Shown here one piece after another: positions 8,510-34,071 of a DNA stretch of 34,071 nt. Position 1 is the first letter of the stretch. Every line of letters begins with the position of its first letter. Below the pieces are notes generated by a model that was given only the letters and a program-made list of their open reading frames with translations, was not told the origin of the DNA and ran no database searches. Source of the DNA: a virus; the IMG/VR virus record IMGVR_UViG_3300046471_000241, positions 1 through 34,071 of that record, one strand, 5' to 3'. A program made the translations under genes and the position numbers.

Positions 8510-11026
8510 TTACCAGCCGGTGGCTTCCCAGTAACTGCCGCCACTGTCCTGGCCGCAGGTGAAACCGATATTATTAATAATTTGCGCCGTACCAAAGTTG
8601 TCGTTGAACGTCCCGCCGCCGCCATTGATGGCGGTCACCTGAACGTTGACGCAGGCGCTCGGGAAGGGAATGGGAAAATTCACCGTTGACCAGCCTCGAC
8701 TCCCTTTGTTGACGACGCCCCACTGCTTAATCATTCCTGTGTCACCGCAGCGCCACCAGCCGCCGCCGAGATTGGCGGTGTTGGTATTGACCGGCTGCCG
8801 GTTATTGGGGCTGAAAACGCGCTGCCCCATCTCATAAATCCCGCCACCTTCGGCGGAAATACTCCCCTGTGTCGCCAGGTCACCGGTGCCGGTAAATCTG
8901 ACAAAGCCCGTTTGTACGGAATTCGCCTGATTAACGGTGCGGAAAAGAAAGCCCCCCACGCCGCCGCCCCGGTTGTTCACAAAGTCGGATTCGCCCTGGC
9001 CGCCGCTTTCGTTCCAGCCTAAATAGGTCCCTTGCCCGTCGCCAGGGTGCGGGATGGTTATCGCCCGGAGATAATTCGCCGTGACGCGACCGTTAACATC
9101 ACCGCCCACGCGGGGAAATGCGCCCACATCATCCGCATTCAGCCCGATATCCTGCGTGCCATCAAACGCCACACCGGCAATCTTGCGGGCGGTGGCGAGT
9201 TTGGTCGCGGCAACGGCTGTGCCATTTGCAGGAAGTGCACCCACGTTTGCCGCGCTAAGATTGATATCCTGCGTGCCATCAAACGCCACACCGGCAATTT
9301 TGCGGGCAGTCGCGAGTTTGGTCGCCGCGACGGCTGTGCCGCCCGCCGGTAATGCGCCGACGTCTGCCGGTGTCGGTTTGTTCGCCTGGCAGTAAATTTC
9401 ATTCCAGGCCGTCCAGGGACCATCGACGCCGTTCCACGCTCCGGTAGCGCCCCGCGTAAACTGTCGTCCGTTGTTGTTAAAGGCAATCTGCTGCGTCGCA
9501 TTCGGCCCCCAGGTCACGAAAATCACGCCGACAAAACCGTTCATCGGATAGCCTTTGTCCGTGGTCGCGGCGGCGGCACCGGGCACGCCGTAATGCCCGA
9601 ACATGGCCGTACCATGCAGCGCGTTGGGCGAGTCTGTCGCGGTTAGGTTCGTGCGGATTTTAAACGCCGTCGCCATTTCATCCGCCAGCGCCTTTTCACT
9701 GGCGGCGCTTTGCGCGGCCGTCCACGCGCCCACGTCGGCGGCGGTGGGTTTGTTATTCGCGCTGTACGTTGGCACCCACTCTTTCCAGGGACCATCGACG
9801 CCGTTCCAGTCAGCGGACAACCCGCGATTCCAGATATTGCCGGTGAACGTAACGTACATCTGCTGACAGCCGTAGGCGCTCGGTGTGACATACAGCGTGC
9901 CTGCGATGCCTTGCGGATAGTGCAGCGCCGCCGTGGCGTTGGCATTTTTAGGCTGCGCGTACAGGACGGCGCTTCCGACTCCGCTGGCAAAGCCCAGGGT
10001 ATTAATATCCGTGGTGGTCAGGATGGCCGACGGCACCGCGACGGAATTCACCGCGCTGGCCTGCACCCAGTCACGCCAGGGTCCATCTGTGCCATTCCAG
10101 GACGCATTCAGCGCACGCGTCCACACCATGCCGGTGTTTTGCACGGTGTAACGCTGCAGCACGCCGCCCGTCCAGGACGCGGGGATAACCTCCAGCACGC
10201 CCGCGGCTTGTGCGCCTGGTGGGTAGCCATTGGCGACCGTGGCATTCGCGCCGGTGCTCTGCACGTAAACCCCGATGTTTGCCAGATTAAACGTGTTGAT
10301 ATTCGCGGTGCCGAGAACACCAGTAATGACGGGTAACGCCCCCACGTCTGCCGCCGCCAGGGTAATGTCAGCGCTCAGCGCTTTATTGTTCACCTTGCGG
10401 GTGGACGGTACGCGGGTGTTGGCATTGTCGTTGGCGGCCTTGACCGCTTTGGGCGTGGCGGCCAGCGCCTCACTGGTACTGCTGACCGCGCTGTTAAGCT
10501 GAACAAAACCTTTTGCCGTCAGCGTGCCGTCGGGGTGGTTGCGGGATTTTTCATGTGCGGCCAGCAGGTCATTCACATACTGCTCGGTGGCCATAATCAC
10601 CGAGTCGTCGATCAGCAGGCTAATGGCCTCGGTGTTACTGACGGCAATCACCATACGCAACGTTTGCGTGCGCCCTGAACCTTCCGCCAGGGTCGGTTTG
10701 TACGTGTCCGCCATATTGCAGACGGCAATCAGCGTGCCGTCGTCGGCAAACAGACCCATTTCACGCATCCAGAAGCCGCCGACGCTCGCAGAAATCACCG
10801 CCTCAGCAATGACCCAGTTGCCATGAGTCGGATCCAGCTTTAAGGAGTTGAGCGGCGTGCGGTACACCTCTTTAACCAGCTTAGTCTGCGTGGCAACCGG
10901 CGTGGTCGCCTTGCCGTTGCCGTCACCGACGGCAAGCTGCGTAATGTTGATGTCAGTTCCCGCCGCAATGGCGGCCGCAATGCGCGACTGTCCAAGCGTG
11001 GTGACAACGGATTTAAATGTGCTCAT
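8510..11026 (-). CDS. H: Tail fibre protein H (receptor binding)
   Basis: H is the fibre that adsorbs to the host surface. At 838 aa it is longer than P2 H (669 aa). The first 160 residues (STFKSVVTTLGQSRIAAAIA... VGGFWMREMGLF) match the conserved P2-type collar that docks on the baseplate. The central shaft contains at least three knob-like units of the pattern SWNGxDGPWxxW (near residues 315, 410 and 540) and a 39-residue repeat containing AATKLATARKIAGVAFDGTQD. The C-terminal 90 residues (WWRCGDTGMIKQWG... EATGW) form a tip unlike P2 and resemble receptor-binding tips of other tailed phages. Extra shaft modules and a swapped tip suggest host-range change. The start has GAGG as ribosome site. 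Confidence 0.92.
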   Translation of the reverse strand: MSTFKSVVTTLGQSRIAAAIAAGTDINITQLAVGDGNGKATTPVATQTKLVKEVYRTPLNSLKLDPTHGNWVIAEAVISASVGGFWMREMGLFADDGTLIAVCNMADTYKPTLAEGSGRTQTLRMVIAVSNTEAISLLIDDSVIMATEQYVNDLLAAHEKSRNHPDGTLTAKGFVQLNSAVSSTSEALAATPKAVKAANDNANTRVPSTRKVNNKALSADITLAAADVGALPVITGVLGTANINTFNLANIGVYVQSTGANATVANGYPPGAQAAGVLEVIPASWTGGVLQRYTVQNTGMVWTRALNASWNGTDGPWRDWVQASAVNSVAVPSAILTTTDINTLGFASGVGSAVLYAQPKNANATAALHYPQGIAGTLYVTPSAYGCQQMYVTFTGNIWNRGLSADWNGVDGPWKEWVPTYSANNKPTAADVGAWTAAQSAASEKALADEMATAFKIRTNLTATDSPNALHGTAMFGHYGVPGAAAATTDKGYPMNGFVGVIFVTWGPNATQQIAFNNNGRQFTRGATGAWNGVDGPWTAWNEIYCQANKPTPADVGALPAGGTAVAATKLATARKIAGVAFDGTQDINLSAANVGALPANGTAVAATKLATARKIAGVAFDGTQDIGLNADDVGAFPRVGGDVNGRVTANYLRAITIPHPGDGQGTYLGWNESGGQGESDFVNNRGGGVGGFLFRTVNQANSVQTGFVRFTGTGDLATQGSISAEGGGIYEMGQRVFSPNNRQPVNTNTANLGGGWWRCGDTGMIKQWGVVNKGSRGWSTVNFPIPFPSACVNVQVTAINGGGGTFNDNFGTAQIINNIGFTCGQDSGGSYWEATGW
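9146..9340 (-). repeat. Tandem 117-bp repeat within fibre gene H
   Basis: Bases 9146..9223 and 9263..9340 are near-identical 78-base blocks set 117 bases (39 codons) apart. They encode two copies of AATKLATARKIAGVAFDGTQDI. This is an internal shaft duplication and offers a site for length change by recombination. Confidence 0.9.
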
Positions 11027-12467: not shown

Positions 12468-12818
12468 TCAGCTCACAGGAAGGGTTAAGGAAATGGCGGC
12501 GGACGTGTCTTTGCGGGTGCCGGTGAGCTCCACCACCGCTTTCCCGTCAAACGTCGTGTCAAAGGTGATGCCGGTCAGGCTGACGCGTGGCTCCCATTTC
12601 AAAATCGCGCTGTAACAGGCCGCCATGATTTGCAGGCGCAGCGCCGCATTCTGCGGGCGGTCAGTCAGTATCGATAGCAGTGAACCATAGTCACGGCGCA
12701 TGACGCGGGAACCGACGGGCGTGCGCAGAATATCGCTGACCGACTGCTGAATGTGCGCCAGGTCTTCGACGCTGCGCCCCGTGTCGCGAGCCAGACCGAT
12801 GTATTTCGCGTGAGTCAT
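12468..12818 (-). CDS. W: Baseplate protein W
   Basis: gpW is the baseplate protein of the T4 gp25 lysozyme-like fold family. The 116-aa product (P2 W is 115 aa) contains the family core ILRTPVGSRVMRRDYGSLL and the downstream EPRVSLTGI block. It lies between spike V (four-base overlap) and J, as in P2. Confidence 0.94.
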   Translation of the reverse strand: MTHAKYIGLARDTGRSVEDLAHIQQSVSDILRTPVGSRVMRRDYGSLLSILTDRPQNAALRLQIMAACYSAILKWEPRVSLTGITFDTTFDGKAVVELTGTRKDTSAAISLTLPVS

Positions 12819-13456
12819 GAAGGCACCTGCGTCTGACCGCCGCCCGTCTGGACGCCGCCGTGTTTATGGTTATGCACAACCACGCCGTTTGACGTGAGGC
12901 TGCCGCCGGAATGGGTGAGGTTCCCGGTTAGGGTGCCGCCCTGTTTCACCTCCAGACTGCCCGTGGTGAGCTTCTTGGTGCAGACCACTTCCGGCGTGTC
13001 GAGCGTGATGCGCGTTTTTGCCGTGCAGGTGATATCCGGTGCAGTCACAGCGACTTTTTCCGACGCGTTTACCGTGGCAGACTTGATGCCGGTAGCCAGC
13101 AGCGCGCCGGTTTTTGGTTCGTACTCGATCACCGCGCCGTCAGGGAATGACACATGCAGCGCATCGGCTGATGCAGAAGGCGCAGGAAATTCATCCGAGA
13201 AAATGCCGGGCATCACGAAGGCGGTATCCAGCTCACCGCCCAGACAGAACAGCAGAACCTGTTCACCGATGGACGGTGCCCACCAGGAACGCGAGCGCCC
13301 TGCACGGGAGGTCAGCCAGTGCAGCCAGTCGGTGACGTTGCCGCCGGTATTGACGCGACAAGTTGCTGCCTCTAAATCCACCTCGGCAACGGTGCCAATG
13401 CGGATCAGATTGCGCAGTAGGCGCGGGATGTCGTTGTTTGGGATGGATGTATTCAT
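12815..13456 (-). CDS. V: Baseplate spike V
   Basis: gpV is the trimeric spike at the tail tip that pierces the outer membrane. The 213-aa protein has the OB-fold half with TDWLHWLTSRAGRSRSWWAPSIGEQV, a beta-helical middle of short repeats, and a C-terminal apex with HNHKH at about residues 195-199. In P2 gpV the corresponding HxH motif binds an iron ion at the needle tip. Length is close to P2 gpV (211 aa). The start at 13456 aligns with P2 (MNT). No strong ribosome site is visible. It is the first gene of the V operon, with an Ogr box about 50 bases upstream. Confidence 0.95.
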   Translation of the reverse strand: MNTSIPNNDIPRLLRNLIRIGTVAEVDLEAATCRVNTGGNVTDWLHWLTSRAGRSRSWWAPSIGEQVLLFCLGGELDTAFVMPGIFSDEFPAPSASADALHVSFPDGAVIEYEPKTGALLATGIKSATVNASEKVAVTAPDITCTAKTRITLDTPEVVCTKKLTTGSLEVKQGGTLTGNLTHSGGSLTSNGVVVHNHKHGGVQTGGGQTQVPS

Positions 13457-13888: not shown

Positions 13889-15340
13889 CTATCTTGTTCT
13901 CCTACCATGTTCGCTGCAACTCAACCATTCTGCTACGTTCATTATAGCCTGCGGATGTGAATGCGTTGAATGTATTAACATGCCATCACTTTGTGGAGCG
14001 AATTTTATGACATTATGCCCCCCGCCAACTGGGGTTTCAGATGTTGCAACAAAAACTTCCGGACAAAAAATTAATCGTAAATCACCATAAGCTATTGCCT
14101 TGGCTAAGGCCAGCCAAAATGAAAATATTGCAACTGGGATTGCAGCAATAAGTAAAACATGGGGGGTGTCTTTTGATGGTTTCACCCATTGATAAATATG
14201 AGAAATAACAGTTAATATAAAACTCACCATAAATACATAGATAAAATACTTTTCCTGAGGATAAAAAACCAATATATTAATACTAGCGAAAATATAAAAG
14301 AGATAACTTAAAATAGCTGACCAATGTATTAACCCACTACGTTTCACTTGACCTTTTTTAAGTTGAGAGAATATAGAAAAACACCATTCATGAAGTGAAC
14401 TTACAAACCTAAGCCCCGAATCCGCTTCATCACCAATAGCGTGAAAAATCTCAACATTTCTAAAGTCAACTGCTTCCTGCTCTTTTTCATTGTCTACTTC
14501 TCTTAAAAAATCATTTTTATATTTTTTGGATATTTTTATTTCAAAGAATATTGAAATAAAGAAAATCAGTGCTGCTAAATTGAGGTTGTATAATTCAAAG
14601 GGCACTAACAACACTGCCAGAAAAAACTGAATAGCCAAGGCACCACTAATATTAATAAGATTCAATAACGAGCCTGAAGTTCTTGTTATCTTTCGGCGGA
14701 AAATGAATGGTGGTGATAAAAGGCAAACTCCTTGAACTTTTTTGGCAATGTCAGGTCGCAAGTAAGACATTTCTCTCACAATGGCTGCGCCATGGCTGTG
14801 AGCGACAATGTAGTTATTTTTTGCAGGTGAGTTGTAAATATGTTCCCCTAATTGATGAGCTGCATGTTTACGAGAGGATACTGTGTTTTTCCCATCCCAG
14901 ATAAATCTAGATAGTTGTACTTTTGGATTTCTTTTTTTAATTGATTTGCACATTTCTGAGTCTGATTGCGTCCACGGTGCATTCGGCTCGAATGTGCCAT
15001 GAACAAGGTGAACTATGACCTCTGCTGATTCAATATCAGCAATTTCGTTAATAGTTGTTTTTTTATGAGGAGGAAATATACAATGCCATGCCGTTAAAAT
15101 AACCTTTTGCCAGATTACATAGTGAGCGAGTACTAATATGAGTATTATTGCGACAGGTATAGTTATGAGGCCAATGGCAACTGTCTTAATGACATATTGG
15201 AGTGTGCCTTTGTTGTGAGTAATACAATAATATAGTATGGATGAAATAAAAAGCACTGACATAGCTATCAACACGCCAGCCAAACCAAATAATACAACAT
15301 AGTCAATAAAATTATCATGTATCATCAAACGGTCTTCCAT
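13889..15340 (-). CDS. Cargo gene: multi-pass membrane serine hydrolase (lipase-like)
   Basis: The 483-aa protein combines an alpha/beta-hydrolase core with about six hydrophobic helices. Helices lie near residues 13-40, 49-77, 228-269 (two), 338-360, 364-386 and 393-418. The hydrolase part shows VHLVHGTF (111-117) as a likely oxyanion strand and VAHSHGAA (179-186) with Ser182 as nucleophile. HAIGDEADSGL (300-310) offers Asp304 or Asp307 as the acid, and IHSTHSHP (456-463) probably supplies the His. A complete triad is therefore plausible. The gene is AT-rich, unlike its neighbours, and sits between S and V, where P2 carries the cargo gene orf30. A lipid or ester substrate is inferred. A role in lysogenic conversion or phage exclusion fits the place but is not shown. 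Start: ATG 15340 has no ribosome site; ATG 15325 has GGA upstream. A TATAAT lies at 15352..15357. Confidence 0.8.
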   Translation of the reverse strand: MEDRLMIHDNFIDYVVLFGLAGVLIAMSVLFISSILYYCITHNKGTLQYVIKTVAIGLITIPVAIILILVLAHYVIWQKVILTAWHCIFPPHKKTTINEIADIESAEVIVHLVHGTFEPNAPWTQSDSEMCKSIKKRNPKVQLSRFIWDGKNTVSSRKHAAHQLGEHIYNSPAKNNYIVAHSHGAAIVREMSYLRPDIAKKVQGVCLLSPPFIFRRKITRTSGSLLNLINISGALAIQFFLAVLLVPFELYNLNLAALIFFISIFFEIKISKKYKNDFLREVDNEKEQEAVDFRNVEIFHAIGDEADSGLRFVSSLHEWCFSIFSQLKKGQVKRSGLIHWSAILSYLFYIFASINILVFYPQEKYFIYVFMVSFILTVISHIYQWVKPSKDTPHVLLIAAIPVAIFSFWLALAKAIAYGDLRLIFCPEVFVATSETPVGGGHNVIKFAPQSDGMLIHSTHSHPQAIMNVAEWLSCSEHGRRTR

Positions 15341-15516
15341 ATGAATAGTTGATTATAAAACTTGTCAGATCTTGTGGTTGTAATTGCAAGGCTAAATAAG
15401 AACATGGCATGCTTATAGTAAAGGTAATACCATCTTAAGTGATACTAAATTCAACTAAAAATGGATGGCCTTGAAGACCTATTTTGACATACTTGTAATG
15501 ATGTCTGCTACTGGCA

Positions 15517-15676
15517 CAGGCTGTGTGAAAACGCTTTAGGTATGTAGCCTATGGTAAAGAATAAATCTTGAACCGTGTCCTTACGTAAAATTTGGCATTA
15601 CTATCCGGCCATTATGTTTCAGATTTCGCATAGCTTCACACACTTCAGTTCTTGACCTGAGTTTTCACACAGCCTG
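15517..15676. repeat. 16-bp perfect inverted repeat bounding 128 bp
   Basis: CAGGCTGTGTGAAAAC at 15517..15532 is the exact reverse complement of 15661..15676. Terminal repeats of this kind are typical of insertion sequences and their small non-autonomous relatives. The enclosed 128 bp have no ORF worth naming. It lies at the right-hand junction of the membrane-hydrolase cargo and may mark how that cargo arrived. A hairpin-forming element without mobility is the alternative. Confidence 0.55.
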
Positions 15677-15716
15677 GGCACAAAGCTGCCTGTCAGATTA
15701 GGTTTAGCTCTGTGCC
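15677..15716 (-). terminator. Hairpin after S, possible end of the O-to-S operon
   Basis: GGCACAAAGC (15677..15686) pairs with GCTCTGTGCC (15707..15716), with one mismatch and a 20-base loop, ten bases past the stop of S. No T run follows on the minus strand, so intrinsic termination is uncertain. Confidence 0.35.
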
Positions 15717-15725
15717 GCAGTTATG

Positions 15726-16184
15726 TCAGGAGAAGCCTGAGCTAAGAAGTATTAGCAATTCATCTTCCACAATCTTCATATCTTCCGCATCCAGCCCTAA
15801 CAGCGGGCGCGCCGGATACTGCATTTCTTTTGCACGGACAGACGGACGATCCCGCAGCCCGTACTGATGCACCTTCGCCATGCGCTGAACCTGTCCGGTG
15901 AATTCCACCACTGCGTCATCAGCGGTGCCCTTGGCCTTCATGTATTTGGCCGTGCGCAGTTTGGCGAACATTTCCCGCTTAATACGGCCTTTCTTTGCCC
16001 GCAAAGGCTGCGGACGTCGCGGTGTGAACGGCTGCCCCTCCGGCGTGACCTGCTGTTTAATGCGCTGCTGCTGATGTTTGCGCAGACGCTTCGCAATGGT
16101 CGCCGCCATCGCCTTCCGGCTTTGTGGCGACAGCGCCTCAATCAGCCCCGCCAGGCGGGTATCAAACGCTGACAACTCACTCAT
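15726..16184 (-). CDS. S: Tail completion protein S
   Basis: gpS acts with R in finishing the tail of P2. The 152-aa protein (P2 S is 150 aa) belongs to the virion morphogenesis family shared with Mu gpG. It shows the basic N-terminal stretch KAMAATIAKRLRKHQQQRIKQQ and the conserved VHQYGLRDRP and YPARPLLGL motifs near the C-terminus. It overlaps the end of R by eight bases. It is the last gene of the O operon before the cargo region. Confidence 0.94.
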   Translation of the reverse strand: MSELSAFDTRLAGLIEALSPQSRKAMAATIAKRLRKHQQQRIKQQVTPEGQPFTPRRPQPLRAKKGRIKREMFAKLRTAKYMKAKGTADDAVVEFTGQVQRMAKVHQYGLRDRPSVRAKEMQYPARPLLGLDAEDMKIVEDELLILLSSGFS

Positions 16185-24470: not shown

Positions 24471-24553
24471 TATTCCTCGATTCGATCAAGATCATACGCT
24501 AAAGTTTCACCTCCAATTTGACTATACACAGTTACCTTTTTAAAAGGATTATA

Positions 24554-25132
24554 ATGAAAACGCTGTTAAGAGCTTTTGCCGTTCTCGCCATTGCAGTAGG
24601 CCTCTCTGGGTGTGCTATTAGTTTACCGTTTAATAACCGCCTGGCTTACTCTTCTATTTCGGATATGAAATCAGTGCAAATCCAAGGGGAAAAACCGAAA
24701 CTCTCAATTTCTTGGAACCCGGTTAACTTCCCTCAGCGCATCGATATTCAGGGTTCAGATGGCTTCGTAGGCGGTGGTTCCCGTACTCGGTTACCAACTG
24801 GTGTGGCCCTATCCTCTCGCATTGAAGAAGCCATTTCTACTTATGCAGATATATCACCATCAGGTCAAAATCTGACAATTACAGTACTTGAAGCACGTTC
24901 CGGTTTTGAGTATTCAGCGGGTATATTCAACATTACTCCTGCTATTGATGTCGGTACCGTTACATTCAATGCTGCGTTTAGCTTGAACGGTAAAACGTGG
25001 AATCAACAATTCTCCTCACACAAGAAAGATCCAACTATCGGCGGTACTTCAGCTACAGGTATTCTTGAAAGTGCTTGGGACGACGTTGCAGTGCAAGTTG
25101 CAAAAAGCATAGCTGCGCATATCGAAAAATAA
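24554..25132 (+). CDS. Cargo lipoprotein, function unknown
   Basis: A 192-aa precursor from the ATG at 24554, with AAGGA five bases upstream; an in-frame ATG at 24518 would lengthen it without a signal peptide logic. MKTLLRAFAVLAIAVGLSGC is a clean lipoprotein signal with lipobox LSGC and Cys20. The residue after Cys is Ala, so sorting to the outer membrane is expected. The mature part is Ser/Thr/Gly-rich beta-type sequence, and I cannot assign a family with certainty. It lies between Q and the cos-like site, where P2 has only a short gap. A constitutively expressed surface lipoprotein in a prophage could act in superinfection exclusion or host conversion. That is inference. Confidence 0.85.
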   Translation: MKTLLRAFAVLAIAVGLSGCAISLPFNNRLAYSSISDMKSVQIQGEKPKLSISWNPVNFPQRIDIQGSDGFVGGGSRTRLPTGVALSSRIEEAISTYADISPSGQNLTITVLEARSGFEYSAGIFNITPAIDVGTVTFNAAFSLNGKTWNQQFSSHKKDPTIGGTSATGILESAWDDVAVQVAKSIAAHIEK

Positions 25133-25652: not shown

Positions 25653-28238
25653 TTACTTACGGATGAGTTTTCTTTTAAGTCTCTGGCAATGTACTTCGTT
25701 GGGTTCAATACTTAAACCAATGTTAGCGAGTTCTAATGCTTCTTGCTCTTTATTAAGATGTAAAGCTAGCCAGGCAATTCTTGAACAAGATATTGGATCG
25801 GCTTCATCTTTTCTACGATAAATTACATTAAAGAGTTTAATTAGTAATTCGTTTTTAACCTGATCACCCAATTCTATTTCGTTTGAACTAAACAAATGAT
25901 TAATCTTATTTGTTATGTTTGAAAGTTCGTCAAATCCAATGTTATCATAAGCTGATAATTGAGTAAGCCCATGTATTTGGTCGAAGGGTTGGTTAAGTCT
26001 TTCAGCAATATTTGAAAATATATTCCAAGCCTGAAATTTATTTTTCTCATATTTTTCATTTTCAATGTACCGTGTAATGCAATCTTTGGCCAAGTGGTTA
26101 AACTCATGAAGGTTAGCTTCGAGTAACCACATAGCTAGTAATTTCCAACCACCATTAAAAGTGATACATATTCTTTCGAGAATTATTTTGTGATTTTTTA
26201 TAAAGTCCGTATCATGGTTCAGGGTTGACAGGTAACGAGTGAAGTTATTGCTTAAAGAGTTATTTTTGTCTTCTAAACTAATTGCTCCGAATCTTCTCAG
26301 ATACGATAAGTCTTGTGAGATAACAAATTTCTGGGAGCTAACACCTACTTTTTTATTACCAAAAGAAAAAGCTACATAAGGTAGTTGGAGAAAATAGTAT
26401 CCGTCTTCTGATTTCAATTCCTCAATCATTGAATATTGAATAAGAAGATCGATTGACTTCTCGACCTCTAATGGTTCCTCAAAAGAAAACATCAAAACAG
26501 CTTCTAGCCCTAATCGTGGTACTGCGGAATTCCACGAGGATAAAGTTAAAAATACTCTTTGAGCATAAGGTGGTAAAATAGAGTATGTTCTTTCAAACAA
26601 TGCAGTCAATACTTCATCACTGCCAGCAATCAATCGTTCCAATGAACCTTTCATCTTATTTCTTACTAAATCACCAATTAGTATTTTAATGATGTATGGA
26701 TGACCAGCAGAAATAGTATAAATCTTGTCTCTGTTTTCTTTTGTTATTCCACCTTCAATTTTTAAACTCTCAATTGTGAGGTTTATCAATTTCATCGATT
26801 GTTCTTTGCTCATTCCTTGAACATGAAGAGGGTAATCGCCTCTGAAATCACGAAGGCGAGTTGTTATCAATATCTTATTCGGAGATCTAATATAAGTGTC
26901 AACCCATTTGTAGGTTTCAGTGGGGTTGTCGATAGTTTCAAAATTATCAAATATAAATAAGGTAGAGCCTGCATCTGCTTTAGTTAATTGGTTTTGAAAG
27001 TACGTAATAGCATCAAAACTTTTTTCTTTTATTTGTTTAGATGATTTAAATAGTTTTGAATAATAGTCCGCTATATCTTTTTTTGTAATTACTTCAGCTC
27101 TAACGATTTTAGCACCATTTGGTGAAAGATCTATGTCTCTAGAGCTAAACCAAATTATTGCATCAAATCTTGTGTTTTCATATAAACGAGGAATTACCTT
27201 TAACGCTAGCGAAGTTTTACCAATCCCGCCCCTACCCAATAAAGTTATAGCTATGTGTCTTTCATCGTTAAGAAGTGTAAATAGTTCATCTTCTAATTCA
27301 TCGCGATTAATGTACTCGTAAGATAATCTAGGAACGTTAGAGAAGCAATTCTCATAAGATATTAACTCACCTAAACCTTCAGACTCACTTGGTGGTAACT
27401 GTCCTTTGGGTGATGAATATTCATTTGAATCACCATGAATTTTATCATCACTTAGATATGAAATCATTTCATATCTACTATTAGTGAATCCCCCGTTAGC
27501 AATATAGAAGTCGCGTAAATCAGGATCGCTTATAACTAGGGGTATCTTACATAATTTATCTACATAAATATAAATACCTTCTTCATATTGATAGCTGTCA
27601 GTTCTCTTTAATATTTCGAATTCATTATTTAAAGTTGATATAGGGGAAACCCTAAATTTACCGCTCATATTCCTTTTTAAATATGCGGAAGGGAGTTTAA
27701 GTAAGGAGAGGTTATCAATAATTAGATTGATACTTTTATCTAAATGGATGGCTGCTTTAGATGCTGAGTTGCTTACTGTTGCGCCATGCCCGCGAGTTTT
27801 ATTTCTAAGCTCAGTGAAATGCTTAAACCAAGATTTAAGATCTTTTTTTACTAGATTTTTATCGTATGGTAAGTTAAAGCACTCTAATGAAAGTTGGAGT
27901 TCACTGACAGCTTCGAATTGCCAATCTCCTAATGTTGATTTTTTTATAAATTCTGCTTGATGGGTTCTCATTTCATCGGGTAAGTACTGCGAGGCGGTGC
28001 CTATGAGTAAATCATCAATTGAGTTTGACCATTCACCTAAACCACTTGCTCTTACTAAGCCATGGAGAATTTTATATTGATGCCTATCCTTATCTTTTTT
28101 TAAGGATGATACTAATGATAAGGTTATTAATTTGGTTAAAGCTTCACCAAAAATTAACAAGTTGAAGAAGAAAGCAAAATCAGAGTCGCTTTTTGAAATC
28201 TCGACCTTTCTACTTAGTTGCTCTATAAAACGATTCAT
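25653..28238 (-). CDS. Cargo gene: STAND NTPase, HEPN-like N-terminus plus NB-ARC plus repeats (probable anti-phage protein)
   Basis: A protein of 861 aa from the ATG at 28238, which has GAGG five bases upstream; the TTG at 28265 is less likely. The helical N-terminus holds ELRNKTRGHG, an R-x5-H motif (R145-H151) typical of HEPN ribonucleases. The NTPase core has Walker A LGRGGIGKTS (334-343), Walker B TLFIFDNFE (426-434), the sensor ITTR (458-461) and GHP (512-514), the NB-ARC order. A winged-helix region and helical, TPR-like repeats follow to the end. STAND proteins of this design sense a ligand with the repeats, oligomerise through the NTPase and fire the N-terminal effector. The gene is AT-rich, has its own terminator, and occupies the A-cos interval where P2 has the exclusion genes tin and old. 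Anti-phage function is therefore likely but inferred; the trigger is unknown. Confidence 0.85.
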   Translation of the reverse strand: MNRFIEQLSRKVEISKSDSDFAFFFNLLIFGEALTKLITLSLVSSLKKDKDRHQYKILHGLVRASGLGEWSNSIDDLLIGTASQYLPDEMRTHQAEFIKKSTLGDWQFEAVSELQLSLECFNLPYDKNLVKKDLKSWFKHFTELRNKTRGHGATVSNSASKAAIHLDKSINLIIDNLSLLKLPSAYLKRNMSGKFRVSPISTLNNEFEILKRTDSYQYEEGIYIYVDKLCKIPLVISDPDLRDFYIANGGFTNSRYEMISYLSDDKIHGDSNEYSSPKGQLPPSESEGLGELISYENCFSNVPRLSYEYINRDELEDELFTLLNDERHIAITLLGRGGIGKTSLALKVIPRLYENTRFDAIIWFSSRDIDLSPNGAKIVRAEVITKKDIADYYSKLFKSSKQIKEKSFDAITYFQNQLTKADAGSTLFIFDNFETIDNPTETYKWVDTYIRSPNKILITTRLRDFRGDYPLHVQGMSKEQSMKLINLTIESLKIEGGITKENRDKIYTISAGHPYIIKILIGDLVRNKMKGSLERLIAGSDEVLTALFERTYSILPPYAQRVFLTLSSWNSAVPRLGLEAVLMFSFEEPLEVEKSIDLLIQYSMIEELKSEDGYYFLQLPYVAFSFGNKKVGVSSQKFVISQDLSYLRRFGAISLEDKNNSLSNNFTRYLSTLNHDTDFIKNHKIILERICITFNGGWKLLAMWLLEANLHEFNHLAKDCITRYIENEKYEKNKFQAWNIFSNIAERLNQPFDQIHGLTQLSAYDNIGFDELSNITNKINHLFSSNEIELGDQVKNELLIKLFNVIYRRKDEADPISCSRIAWLALHLNKEQEALELANIGLSIEPNEVHCQRLKRKLIRK

Positions 28239-28299
28239 CTCTACCTCATAAAATTTAGTTATCAAAATTCATTAAATTTTACATGTCGTAATGAAATGA

Positions 28300-32258: not shown

Positions 32259-33266
32259 ATGTCGATTAAGAAGCTCGATGATGGTCGTTATGAAGTGGAC
32301 ATCAGACCGCAGGGGCGCAACGGAAAGCGCTTCCGGCGTAGGTTCGACAAGAAACATGAAGCAGCCGCATACGAAAAATATGTAGCGGTGAATTATCACG
32401 ACAAAGAATGGCTATCTAAACCGGCTGACAAACGGCCTTTATCCGAGTTGATAGAACTGTGGTGGCTCTATCACGGGCAGAACGTGAAGCACGGCAAGCT
32501 CGACAAAGCCAAACTGGAGTTCATCTGTAACCTGATGAATGACCCGTGTTCTTTCCAAATTGATAGCCTGGCTATTACAAAATTTAAGTCTTTAAGATTG
32601 GCGAAGGGCGTTAAGGCAACGACGGTAAACCGCAATTTGATGTTGCTGAGTGGCCTGTTTACTTACCTGAACGAAGCCGGTTTATTCCACGCTGAAAATC
32701 CGTTGCATGGAGTAACGTTGCTAAAAGGGCAGCTATCATCCATGACTTTTATGTCTGCTGATGAAATTGAGAAGTTGCTGTCTGTTTTGGAAGGGGACAA
32801 TAAGAGGATTGCGATCCTGAGCTTGAGCACTGGAGGCCGCTGGGGAGAAATAAGCAGTTTGAAGGTCGAGAATGTCATTAATAACAGAGTGACTTTTCTC
32901 AATACCAAAAACGGCAAACCCAGAACAGTCCCGATCTCCGATGAGGTATGGAAGGCAGTCAAAAATCAGAAGTCTGGATTACTTTTTCCTGATGCCGATT
33001 ATTTGACCTTCCGGCTGCTATTGAAATCGGTGAAGCCAGACTTACCGAAAGGGCAATCATTACATGTGCTGCGACATACGTTTGCGACACATTTCATGAT
33101 GAACGGCGGGAACATAATCACCCTGCAGAGAATTCTCGGACACGCGAATATTAACCAAACAATGGTCTATGCTCACTTCGCGCCGGACTTCCTGCAGGAC
33201 GCAATTTCCTTCAATCCACTGAGGGGAAAAGCGGGGCTGGAGTGTCCACATAGTGTCCACACCTAA
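32259..33266 (+). CDS. int: Integrase (tyrosine recombinase)
   Basis: Int joins attP and attB and, with Cox and IHF, reverses it. The 335-aa protein (P2 Int is 337 aa) starts MSIKKLDDGRYEVDIRPQGR, the arm-binding N-terminal domain. The catalytic domain shows R194 (TGGRWGE), H269 and R272 (HVLRHTF), H295 (ILGHANI) and nucleophile Y304 (TMVYAHF), so the active site is complete. It is co-oriented with C, as in P2, where both come from Pc. The last codons contain two copies of the arm-type motif AGTGTCCACA, so coding and recombination sites overlap. Confidence 0.97.
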   Translation: MSIKKLDDGRYEVDIRPQGRNGKRFRRRFDKKHEAAAYEKYVAVNYHDKEWLSKPADKRPLSELIELWWLYHGQNVKHGKLDKAKLEFICNLMNDPCSFQIDSLAITKFKSLRLAKGVKATTVNRNLMLLSGLFTYLNEAGLFHAENPLHGVTLLKGQLSSMTFMSADEIEKLLSVLEGDNKRIAILSLSTGGRWGEISSLKVENVINNRVTFLNTKNGKPRTVPISDEVWKAVKNQKSGLLFPDADYLTFRLLLKSVKPDLPKGQSLHVLRHTFATHFMMNGGNIITLQRILGHANINQTMVYAHFAPDFLQDAISFNPLRGKAGLECPHSVHT

Positions 33267-33309
33267 GCATCTTTATAAGGCTTACAGCTGCTTACAGCAT
33301 TTATAACTC
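33241..33309. promoter_or_regulatory. attP arm: Int arm-type pair and phased Cox-type repeats
   Basis: AGTGTCCACA occurs at 33241..33250 and 33252..33261, 11 bp apart; the left end of the prophage has a similar pair. Then CTTTATAAG, GCTTACAGCT, GCTTACAGCA and TTTATAAC units begin at 33270, 33280, 33290 and 33300. This repeats the 10-bp phasing and the CTTACAG core seen between cox and C. The order int, arm sites, Cox sites, core is that expected for P2. Confidence 0.7.
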
Positions 33310-33354
33310 ATTGATTTATAGTGAACGCGTTGTAAGTGCAGGAAAAATAAATGA

Positions 33355-33379
33355 TAAAAAAGGCACATTTTTGTGCCTT
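33355..33379. repeat. att core, right end of prophage, and terminator of can
   Basis: Perfect 25-base copy of 1159..1183. On the minus strand AAAGGCACA pairs with TGTGCCTTT around AAAA and ends in a T run, which makes it the intrinsic terminator for can, whose stop is 35 bases away. Integration at a terminator stem rather than in a tRNA keeps the host gene intact. Confidence 0.93.
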
Positions 33380-33414
33380 TTGTTTTTTGAATTTCTGTAG
33401 AGTAGGGCGGCTTG

Positions 33415-34071
33415 TTATTGCGGGTCGCCGTTCAGCAAGGCGGAGACGCCCTGACGGTAGCGCTGTTCCAGTGTTTCGCGGCTGGTGGCGTCAACTTCTA
33501 GGTTGCGCAGACGTCCGTCCAGAATGCCGTAAACCCAGCCGTGCAGCGTGACTTTCTGGCCGCGTTTCCAGGCCGATTGCATCACGGTGGAGTGGCCGAG
33601 GTTGTAAACTTGCTCAACCACGTTCAGTTCACATAACTTATCGAGGCGCTTCTCTGGCGACAGTTCGCCCAGCAGGGAACTGTGTTTGTACCAGATGTCC
33701 CGGATATGCAACAACCAGTTATTAATCAAACCCAGTTCAGGGTTTTCAACCGCCGACTGCACACCGCCACAGCCGTAGTGACCGCAGATAATCACGTGTT
33801 CGACTTCCAGCACGTCGATAGCATATTGCACAACGGACAGGCAGTTAAGGTCGGTGTGGATGACCAGGTTGGCAACGTTACGGTGAACGAACAGTTCGCC
33901 TGGCTCAAGCCCTGTCAGGCGCTCGGCGGGAACACGGCTGTCAGAACAGCCAATCCACAGAAAGCGGGGTTTTTGAGATTGGGAAAGCCGCTCAAAGAAA
34001 CCAGGATCTTCATCAATCATGGTTTTGGACCAGGCTGCGTTATTGCTGATGAGTCTTTCTATGTCATTCAT
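33415..34071 (-). CDS. can: Beta-class carbonic anhydrase (host gene)
   Basis: Can interconverts CO2 and bicarbonate in the cytoplasm and supplies bicarbonate for growth in air. The 218-aa protein follows E. coli Can (220 aa) closely: [16 protein letters not shown] at the start, zinc ligands C42, D44 (CSDSR), H98 and C101 (GHYGCGG), and [10 protein letters not shown] near the end. It begins with ATG at the last base of the window, so the start fits but its promoter is outside. It marks the host side of the right attachment site and an Enterobacterales host. Confidence 0.96.

Follow-up and report, generated by a model that had tools for sequence, protein, structure and literature searches.

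A putative membrane-embedded lipase-type hydrolase carried as optional cargo by P2-like phages, and its possible role in phage defence

Described systems and the locus in the window

Phage P2 carries optional (moron) genes, among them the phage-exclusion genes fun(Z), old and tin, and fun(Z), which is annotated as blocking T5, occupies the slot between genes G and FI. Minimal lipases such as Bacillus subtilis LipA (1i6w) and Lip_vut1 (6nkc) have the catalytic order Ser-Asp-His and an AHSxG nucleophile elbow, and LipA is a secreted, soluble enzyme with about 56 residues from Ser to Asp and 23 from Asp to His. LysB esterases of mycobacteriophages are lipases that aid lysis, and CapV is a soluble patatin that is switched by a nucleotide. 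Tle1 and Tle3 combine an alpha/beta-hydrolase bearing a GxSxG-type motif with a membrane-binding part, which in Tle1 is a membrane-anchoring, amphipathic module, and they are delivered and accompanied by immunity proteins (PMC13133936). In P2-like phages, three moron loci have been described, namely TO, Z/fun and orf30 (PMC3091744, PMC6823313), and genes unrelated to defence are likewise present in P2 moron slots, as described for the A-Q slot (Rousset 2022, PMC9122126).

The protein described here resembles several of these systems in part. Its predicted core is shared with LipA and Lip_vut1 over 158-159 residues at 2.2-2.4 Å, with the same order of catalytic residues and the same type of elbow, but at only 16-18% identity, and unlike in LipA, 122 residues separate Ser from Asp and 153 separate Asp from His, both intervals being filled by predicted membrane helices. 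Like the P2 exclusion genes, it occupies a P2 moron slot as optional cargo, and an Escherichia coli homologue sits in the fun(Z) slot itself; however, phage exclusion belongs to the P2 genes, whereas the hydrolase is a candidate, and we found no sequence relation to any described P2 moron family. Infection would be stopped by membrane damage, as with CBASS phospholipases of the CapV type and retron membrane effectors, and a type IV retron reverse transcriptase occupies the same S|V slot in another P2-like phage. In contrast to CapV, the protein would be an alpha/beta-hydrolase integral to the membrane, and it has no known partner.

The window, that is, the whole stretch of 34,071 nucleotides analysed here, is a 34-kb virus record with a P2-like gene order. 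The first-pass annotation had described the hydrolase as cargo at the known P2 site of orf30 in GC-poor DNA, and these points were borne out: the open reading frame, its strand and its extent (Table 1) are correct; its neighbours are S and V, the published orf30 site (PMC3091744, PMC6823313), where P2's own record has Orf30; GC content is 0.32-0.38 within a region of 0.57-0.64 (about 35% for the reading frame against about 60% around it); and two of the three P2 moron sites have members of the family, which also occur next to an integrase, ahead of a terminase and on plasmids. The gene thus has the features of a P2-like moron, lying in a variable locus, differing from its flanks in composition, occurring sporadically and having moved horizontally. 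The E. coli copy has a stronger hairpin at the position equivalent to that of the probable terminator in the window. Because homologues with 72%, 65%, 50%, 49% and 38% identity share most of its length and the dN/dS ratio between the window copy and the E. coli version is 0.18, the reading frame is not a chance one; this ratio also indicates that the protein has been maintained.

Table 1. Coordinates of the hydrolase gene, its parts and boundaries, and comparable cargo slots (positions in the window unless a locus is named)
Feature	Position	Strand	Remarks
Putative membrane-embedded serine hydrolase gene	13889..15340	-	483 aa / 483 codons
P2 gene V, cargo-site flank	12815..13456	-	baseplate assembly/spike
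P2 gene S, cargo-site flank	15726..16184	-	phrog_26, tail completion
Hairpin directly 3' of hydrolase stop codon	13823..13853	-	probable terminator
N-terminal membrane helices 11-41 and 46-88 (predicted)	15077..15310	-	lacking in most distant homologues
HGTF motif, residues 114-117	14990..15001	-	probable oxyanion-hole loop; near invariant, but also a search pattern, hence biased
Ser182 codon, predicted nucleophile in AHSHG	14795..14797	-	immediately past strand 175-181
First insertion, predicted membrane helices 223-248 and 253-287	14480..14674	-	between Ser and Asp halves
Asp304 codon, predicted catalytic acid	14429..14431	-	past strand 296-301; invariant in the A2 alignment; 73/78
Second insertion, hydrophobic helices 339-359, 364-386 and 394-418	14087..14326	-	between Asp and His
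His457 codon, predicted catalytic base	13970..13972	-	past last strand 443-447; 76/78
Type-A boundary palindrome, inner half TGTGCCAGTAGCAGACATC	15500..15518	-	5' end of shared unit
MITE-like element, 166 bp	15514..15679	.	19-nt inverted ends (95%); splits the type-A palindrome 5' of the hydrolase gene
Type-A end, outer half CTAATCTGACAGGCAGCTTTGTGCC	15677..15701	-	
A/B-bounded slot	L087:7800-9719		
A/B-bounded slot	L002:9993-11912		
24-nt boundary palindromes of the slot, P2	L221:7336-7359 and 9433-9456		
Type IV retron reverse transcriptase and nearby small membrane proteins, S|V (orf30) slot of a P2-like phage	L182:3083-6086		PADLOC RT_IV, E 3.7e-163
TIR protein, Z/fun slot	L154:3569-4534	-	matches ThsB (PADLOC)
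RelA/SpoT-like synthetase, Z/fun slot	L204:6056-7330	+	PADLOC candidate model
HNH-like protein (by eye), Z/fun slot	L117:354-1163	-	

Predicted fold, membrane helices and catalytic residues

We searched the window protein against family models and found no match in NCBIfam or PADLOC, one insignificant match in PHROGs and only subthreshold matches in Pfam (Ser_hydrolase, E 0.0022; Hydrolase_4, E 0.0087; and Thioesterase), so that the family is at present without any model by which it could be detected. An AlphaFold2 model built on an alignment of 59 sequences had a mean pLDDT of 82.5, with most of the hydrolase core at 93-97 and the N-terminal helices as the weakest part (46-75). Fold prediction had been named in the first-pass annotation as the check on whether the triad residues meet, and its outcome was favourable: VIA-align 2 superposed lipases on the model at Z of about 18, with 6nkc at Z 18.3 and 2.3 Å over 159 of 171 residues and LipA at Z 17.9, which assigns the predicted model to the alpha/beta-hydrolase fold. 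The matched minimal lipases span model residues 106-476, and for this reason the model supports a complete lipase fold into which the membrane helices are inserted. Because the superposition covers the strands before and after both insertions, the model also implies that Ser182, Asp304 and His457 converge in space. Foldseek alone gave weak scores for the same model, probably because of the insertions, and the VIA-align 2 match list, to which this statement applies, contained no full-length membrane counterpart. Even apart from any defence role, the predicted fold is unusual, in that membrane helices interrupt a minimal lipase core at two points between catalytic residues.

The order of elements in the model (strand-Ser-helix, strand-Asp and strand-His by DSSP) is canonical, and model and conservation agree in placing nucleophile, acid and histidine each past the expected strand. 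The three residues are invariant or nearly so in the 59 aligned homologues, which are mostly 16-25% identical, and occur together in 71 of 78 aligned homologues, so that the loss of Ser and His among homologues, the observation that would have told against the first-pass annotation, was not what we saw. The triad proposed there stood in Ser182, in His457 (from a range of 457-462) and in Asp304; its other candidate acid, Asp307, is excluded, as it is not conserved among homologues. The positions of highest conservation among the 78 were H114-G115-T116, W148, N152, R157, H181-S182-H183-G184, P211, D304, E305, A306, G419 and H457. The conservation of AHSHG and HGT is biased, because both motifs served as search patterns, while D304, H457, W148 and R157 lay outside these patterns and are free of this bias. 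The A2 alignment of 59 leaves out five short sequences with a His at the Asp304 column (L050, L055, L061, L067 and L071), which look like another subfamily or a misalignment. Taken together, the lipase-type alpha/beta-hydrolase reading is well supported by the predicted fold, the conserved triad and its order, and the placement of the insertions, in agreement with the serine-hydrolase reading of the first-pass annotation.

Seven hydrophobic helices (Table 1) emerge both from hydrophobicity and from the model, and they lead us to infer an integral membrane location; the first-pass annotation had counted about six, and its interleaving of helices with the triad was recovered in the model while its number was not. 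Two segments were present at the first insertion in 48 of 71 homologues, and two or three at the second in 57 of 71; the N-terminal pair was missing from most of the 71. A separate model of L090, a phage homologue with 21% identity, kept both insertions, with a core pLDDT of 96-98. The positive charges that flank helices 3-5 (RRK, KISKKYK and KKGQVKR) suggest that the catalytic domain lies on the cytoplasmic side. Three full spans between Asp and His would place these residues on opposite sides; if the two face the same side of the membrane, one of the three helices within 339-418 is probably not a full span but re-entrant, in-plane or inserted only in part.

Distribution of the family and ends of the shared unit

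Searches of 50,697 phage records with both protein and DNA yielded no match to the hydrolase, and single-protein scans of genome contigs and viral contigs likewise yielded none, so that an alignment was required as the query. A protein search retrieved a copy with 72% identity from a Salmonella plasmid and remote homologues from plasmids of Polaromonas and Paraburkholderia, and a DNA search retrieved one E. coli genome. An alignment of five sequences as the query recovered 78 loci in the GTDB species genomes and a further six in IMG/VR, with identities of 65% in Rahnella, 50% in Proteus, 49% in Paraburkholderia and 38% in Erwinia, followed by a tail of 20-36% across many phyla. The Rahnella homologue (L009:7400-8780) has an apparent frameshift in the N-terminal membrane segment near a T-rich run, which seems to be a sequencing error or decay. 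The gene was present in 1 of 5426 E. coli genomes, genuinely in 1 of 395 Enterobacterales and at full length in 3 of 399 Burkholderiales, and it is mobile and patchy. Several homologues lie amid ordinary chromosomal genes, the Proteus copy adjoins a phage integrase, and L090 lies upstream of a terminase. There was no conserved partner gene among the neighbours of the closer homologues; near the distant ones, a SIR2 gene lies close to the Polaromonas homologue, and most other neighbours tested had no PADLOC match.

The near-identical copies found between G and FI in E. coli P2-like prophages (L002 and L087) belong to a unit of 1925 bp that is shared with a Salmonella IncFIB plasmid at 99.2-99.4% identity and contains no second gene. 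The window copy shows about 75% DNA identity to this unit, the similarity beginning at the same 5' point. At the start of the block stands GTCCGCTATGTGCCAATAGCAGAC (type A) and at its end GTCCGCTTCTCGCTCAAAGCAGAC (type B), both of which are 24-nt palindromes: type A, GTCYGCT..GTGC..AGCRGAC, lies after G, and type B, GTCYGCT..CGCTC..AGCRGAC, lies before FI. Their A-to-B orientation is consistent, with varied low-GC genes between them, and they are also found on the plasmid. Type A follows G at a distance of 53 or 65 bp in about 20 P2-like prophages, and B, where found at the slot, lies mostly about 80 or 157 bp before FI; in P2 itself, an A with one mismatch past G and a degenerate B with three mismatches before FI flank fun(Z). 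Palindromes A and B mark the fixed ends of the Z/fun (G|FI) cargo slot of P2-like phages.

A scan of IMG/VR for GTCYGCTNNNNGCNNNNAGCRGAC returned at least 120 stretches, at least 15 of which had more than one copy, and the reversed control pattern returned 46 stretches, none with more than one copy. Among the matches listed, the adjacent pairs with both members typed comprised 13 in the order A+ B+, 2 in the reverse order B- A- and 3 otherwise. We rejected the idea that the palindromes are the ends of a cargo-specific transposon, because they also flank ordinary chromosomal genes and are the fixed ends of the G|FI slot; they are boundary repeats and no proof of a transposon. The intact pattern is absent from the window even when three mismatches are allowed, because the type-A end at S|V is split by the MITE-like element. 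Parts of this element are found again in intergenic DNA of plasmids from Klebsiella, Salmonella, Rahnella and Erwinia. An exchange mechanism has been discussed for the A-Q hotspot, only as speculation (Rousset 2022, PMC9122126), and the cassette boundaries offer a concrete handle on the movement of optional genes among P2-like slots and to plasmids.

Possible roles of the hydrolase

We propose that the protein may be an inner-membrane serine hydrolase in which a minimal-lipase domain (residues about 106-476) would bring together a triad from three sequence pieces parted by membrane helices, so that the active site would be held at the bilayer. Fold and placement make acyl esters of membrane lipids the most likely substrate. 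In a lysogen, the enzyme would stay silent until another phage upset the cell or its membrane, and would then become active; the ensuing membrane damage would stop the infection, and the protein would thus act as a single-gene abortive-infection effector. No sensor domain or partner gene was recognised, PADLOC returned no match for the window protein and three single weak matches among the 59 homologues, and in the literature covered, which was mostly outside subscription journals, we found nothing specific on membrane alpha/beta-hydrolases in phage defence.

Equivalent P2 slots hold defence-type genes (Table 1), together with the DpdB-like protein of L114 and a number of small membrane proteins, and four of ten cargo genes tested with PADLOC had a match, a figure that gives no rate since the ten were chosen by eye. 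By analogy with this cargo and given the sporadic occurrence of the gene, an anti-phage effector, which the first-pass annotation had suggested alongside a lysogenic-conversion effector, is the most likely role, although we hold it tentatively and give it slightly less than an even chance. Were it true, a membrane lipase with enzyme and anchor in one chain would be added to the effectors that stop infection. More doubtful is the wider proposal of an unnamed, scattered family of integral membrane lipases with the domain spread across helix insertions, acting in single-gene phage defence and carried among P2 moron slots and plasmids by a cassette with palindromes at its ends.

The main rival, which we consider unlikely although still worth weighing, is a lysogenic-conversion enzyme with no anti-phage role that would remodel or recycle membrane or envelope lipids of the host, or remove acyl groups, and would thereby benefit the lysogen. 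The enzyme fold and membrane placement fit this scenario equally, P2 moron slots are classical sites of lysogenic conversion, and homologues reside in free-living bacterial chromosomes beside ordinary genes; nevertheless, the very sporadic distribution and the repeated use of phage and plasmid slots that defence genes also occupy favour defence somewhat. Less probable again is an esterase, thioesterase or deacylase bound to the membrane whose substrate would be a small acylated molecule or a lipoprotein and not bulk phospholipid. An alpha/beta-hydrolase fold does not fix the substrate, and the subthreshold Pfam matches point in this direction, but the nearest folds are lipases and cutinases and the active site appears tied into membrane helices.

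We regard as very improbable a late gene that aids lysis and is expressed with the late operon to which S and V belong: the hydrolase is on the same strand as both, and lipases aid lysis in some phages, but it has its own hairpin terminator and long flanks, the phage records searched contain no match, and the plasmid-borne copy and the one next to an integrase are not part of late operons. The least probable reading, an antibacterial phospholipase akin to the Tle effectors of type VI secretion and delivered into rival cells, draws on the architecture of Tle1, on the neighbouring V as a spike homologue and on weak matches of 6 of the 59 homologues to Tle3 (PF24322, best 3.8e-5) and of one to NF041560, but it is not supported, as the window protein matches no Tle model, no immunity or adaptor gene is adjacent or within the unit, most copies lie away from V or VgrG genes, and integral helices are unlike a soluble delivered toxin.

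Other optional genes were seen alongside the hydrolase. The E. coli phage L087, with the hydrolase at G|FI, carries at S|V a 389-aa protein of phrog_9373 (function unknown) with predicted membrane helices (L087:1582-2751, minus strand). At the A-Q (old/tin) defence hotspot of the window, a low-GC gene (25653-28265, minus strand) encodes an 870-aa protein, STAND-like by eye with a GRGGIGKT P-loop, which matched PADLOC only weakly (E 2.7e-4) and the PDB not at all, and a 204-aa putative lipoprotein (24518-25132, plus strand), which had no PADLOC match, lies beside the portal gene Q. Positions 32259-34071 hold a phage integrase and, after it at the edge of the window, a carbonic-anhydrase-like gene, which is perhaps the host flank of the prophage.
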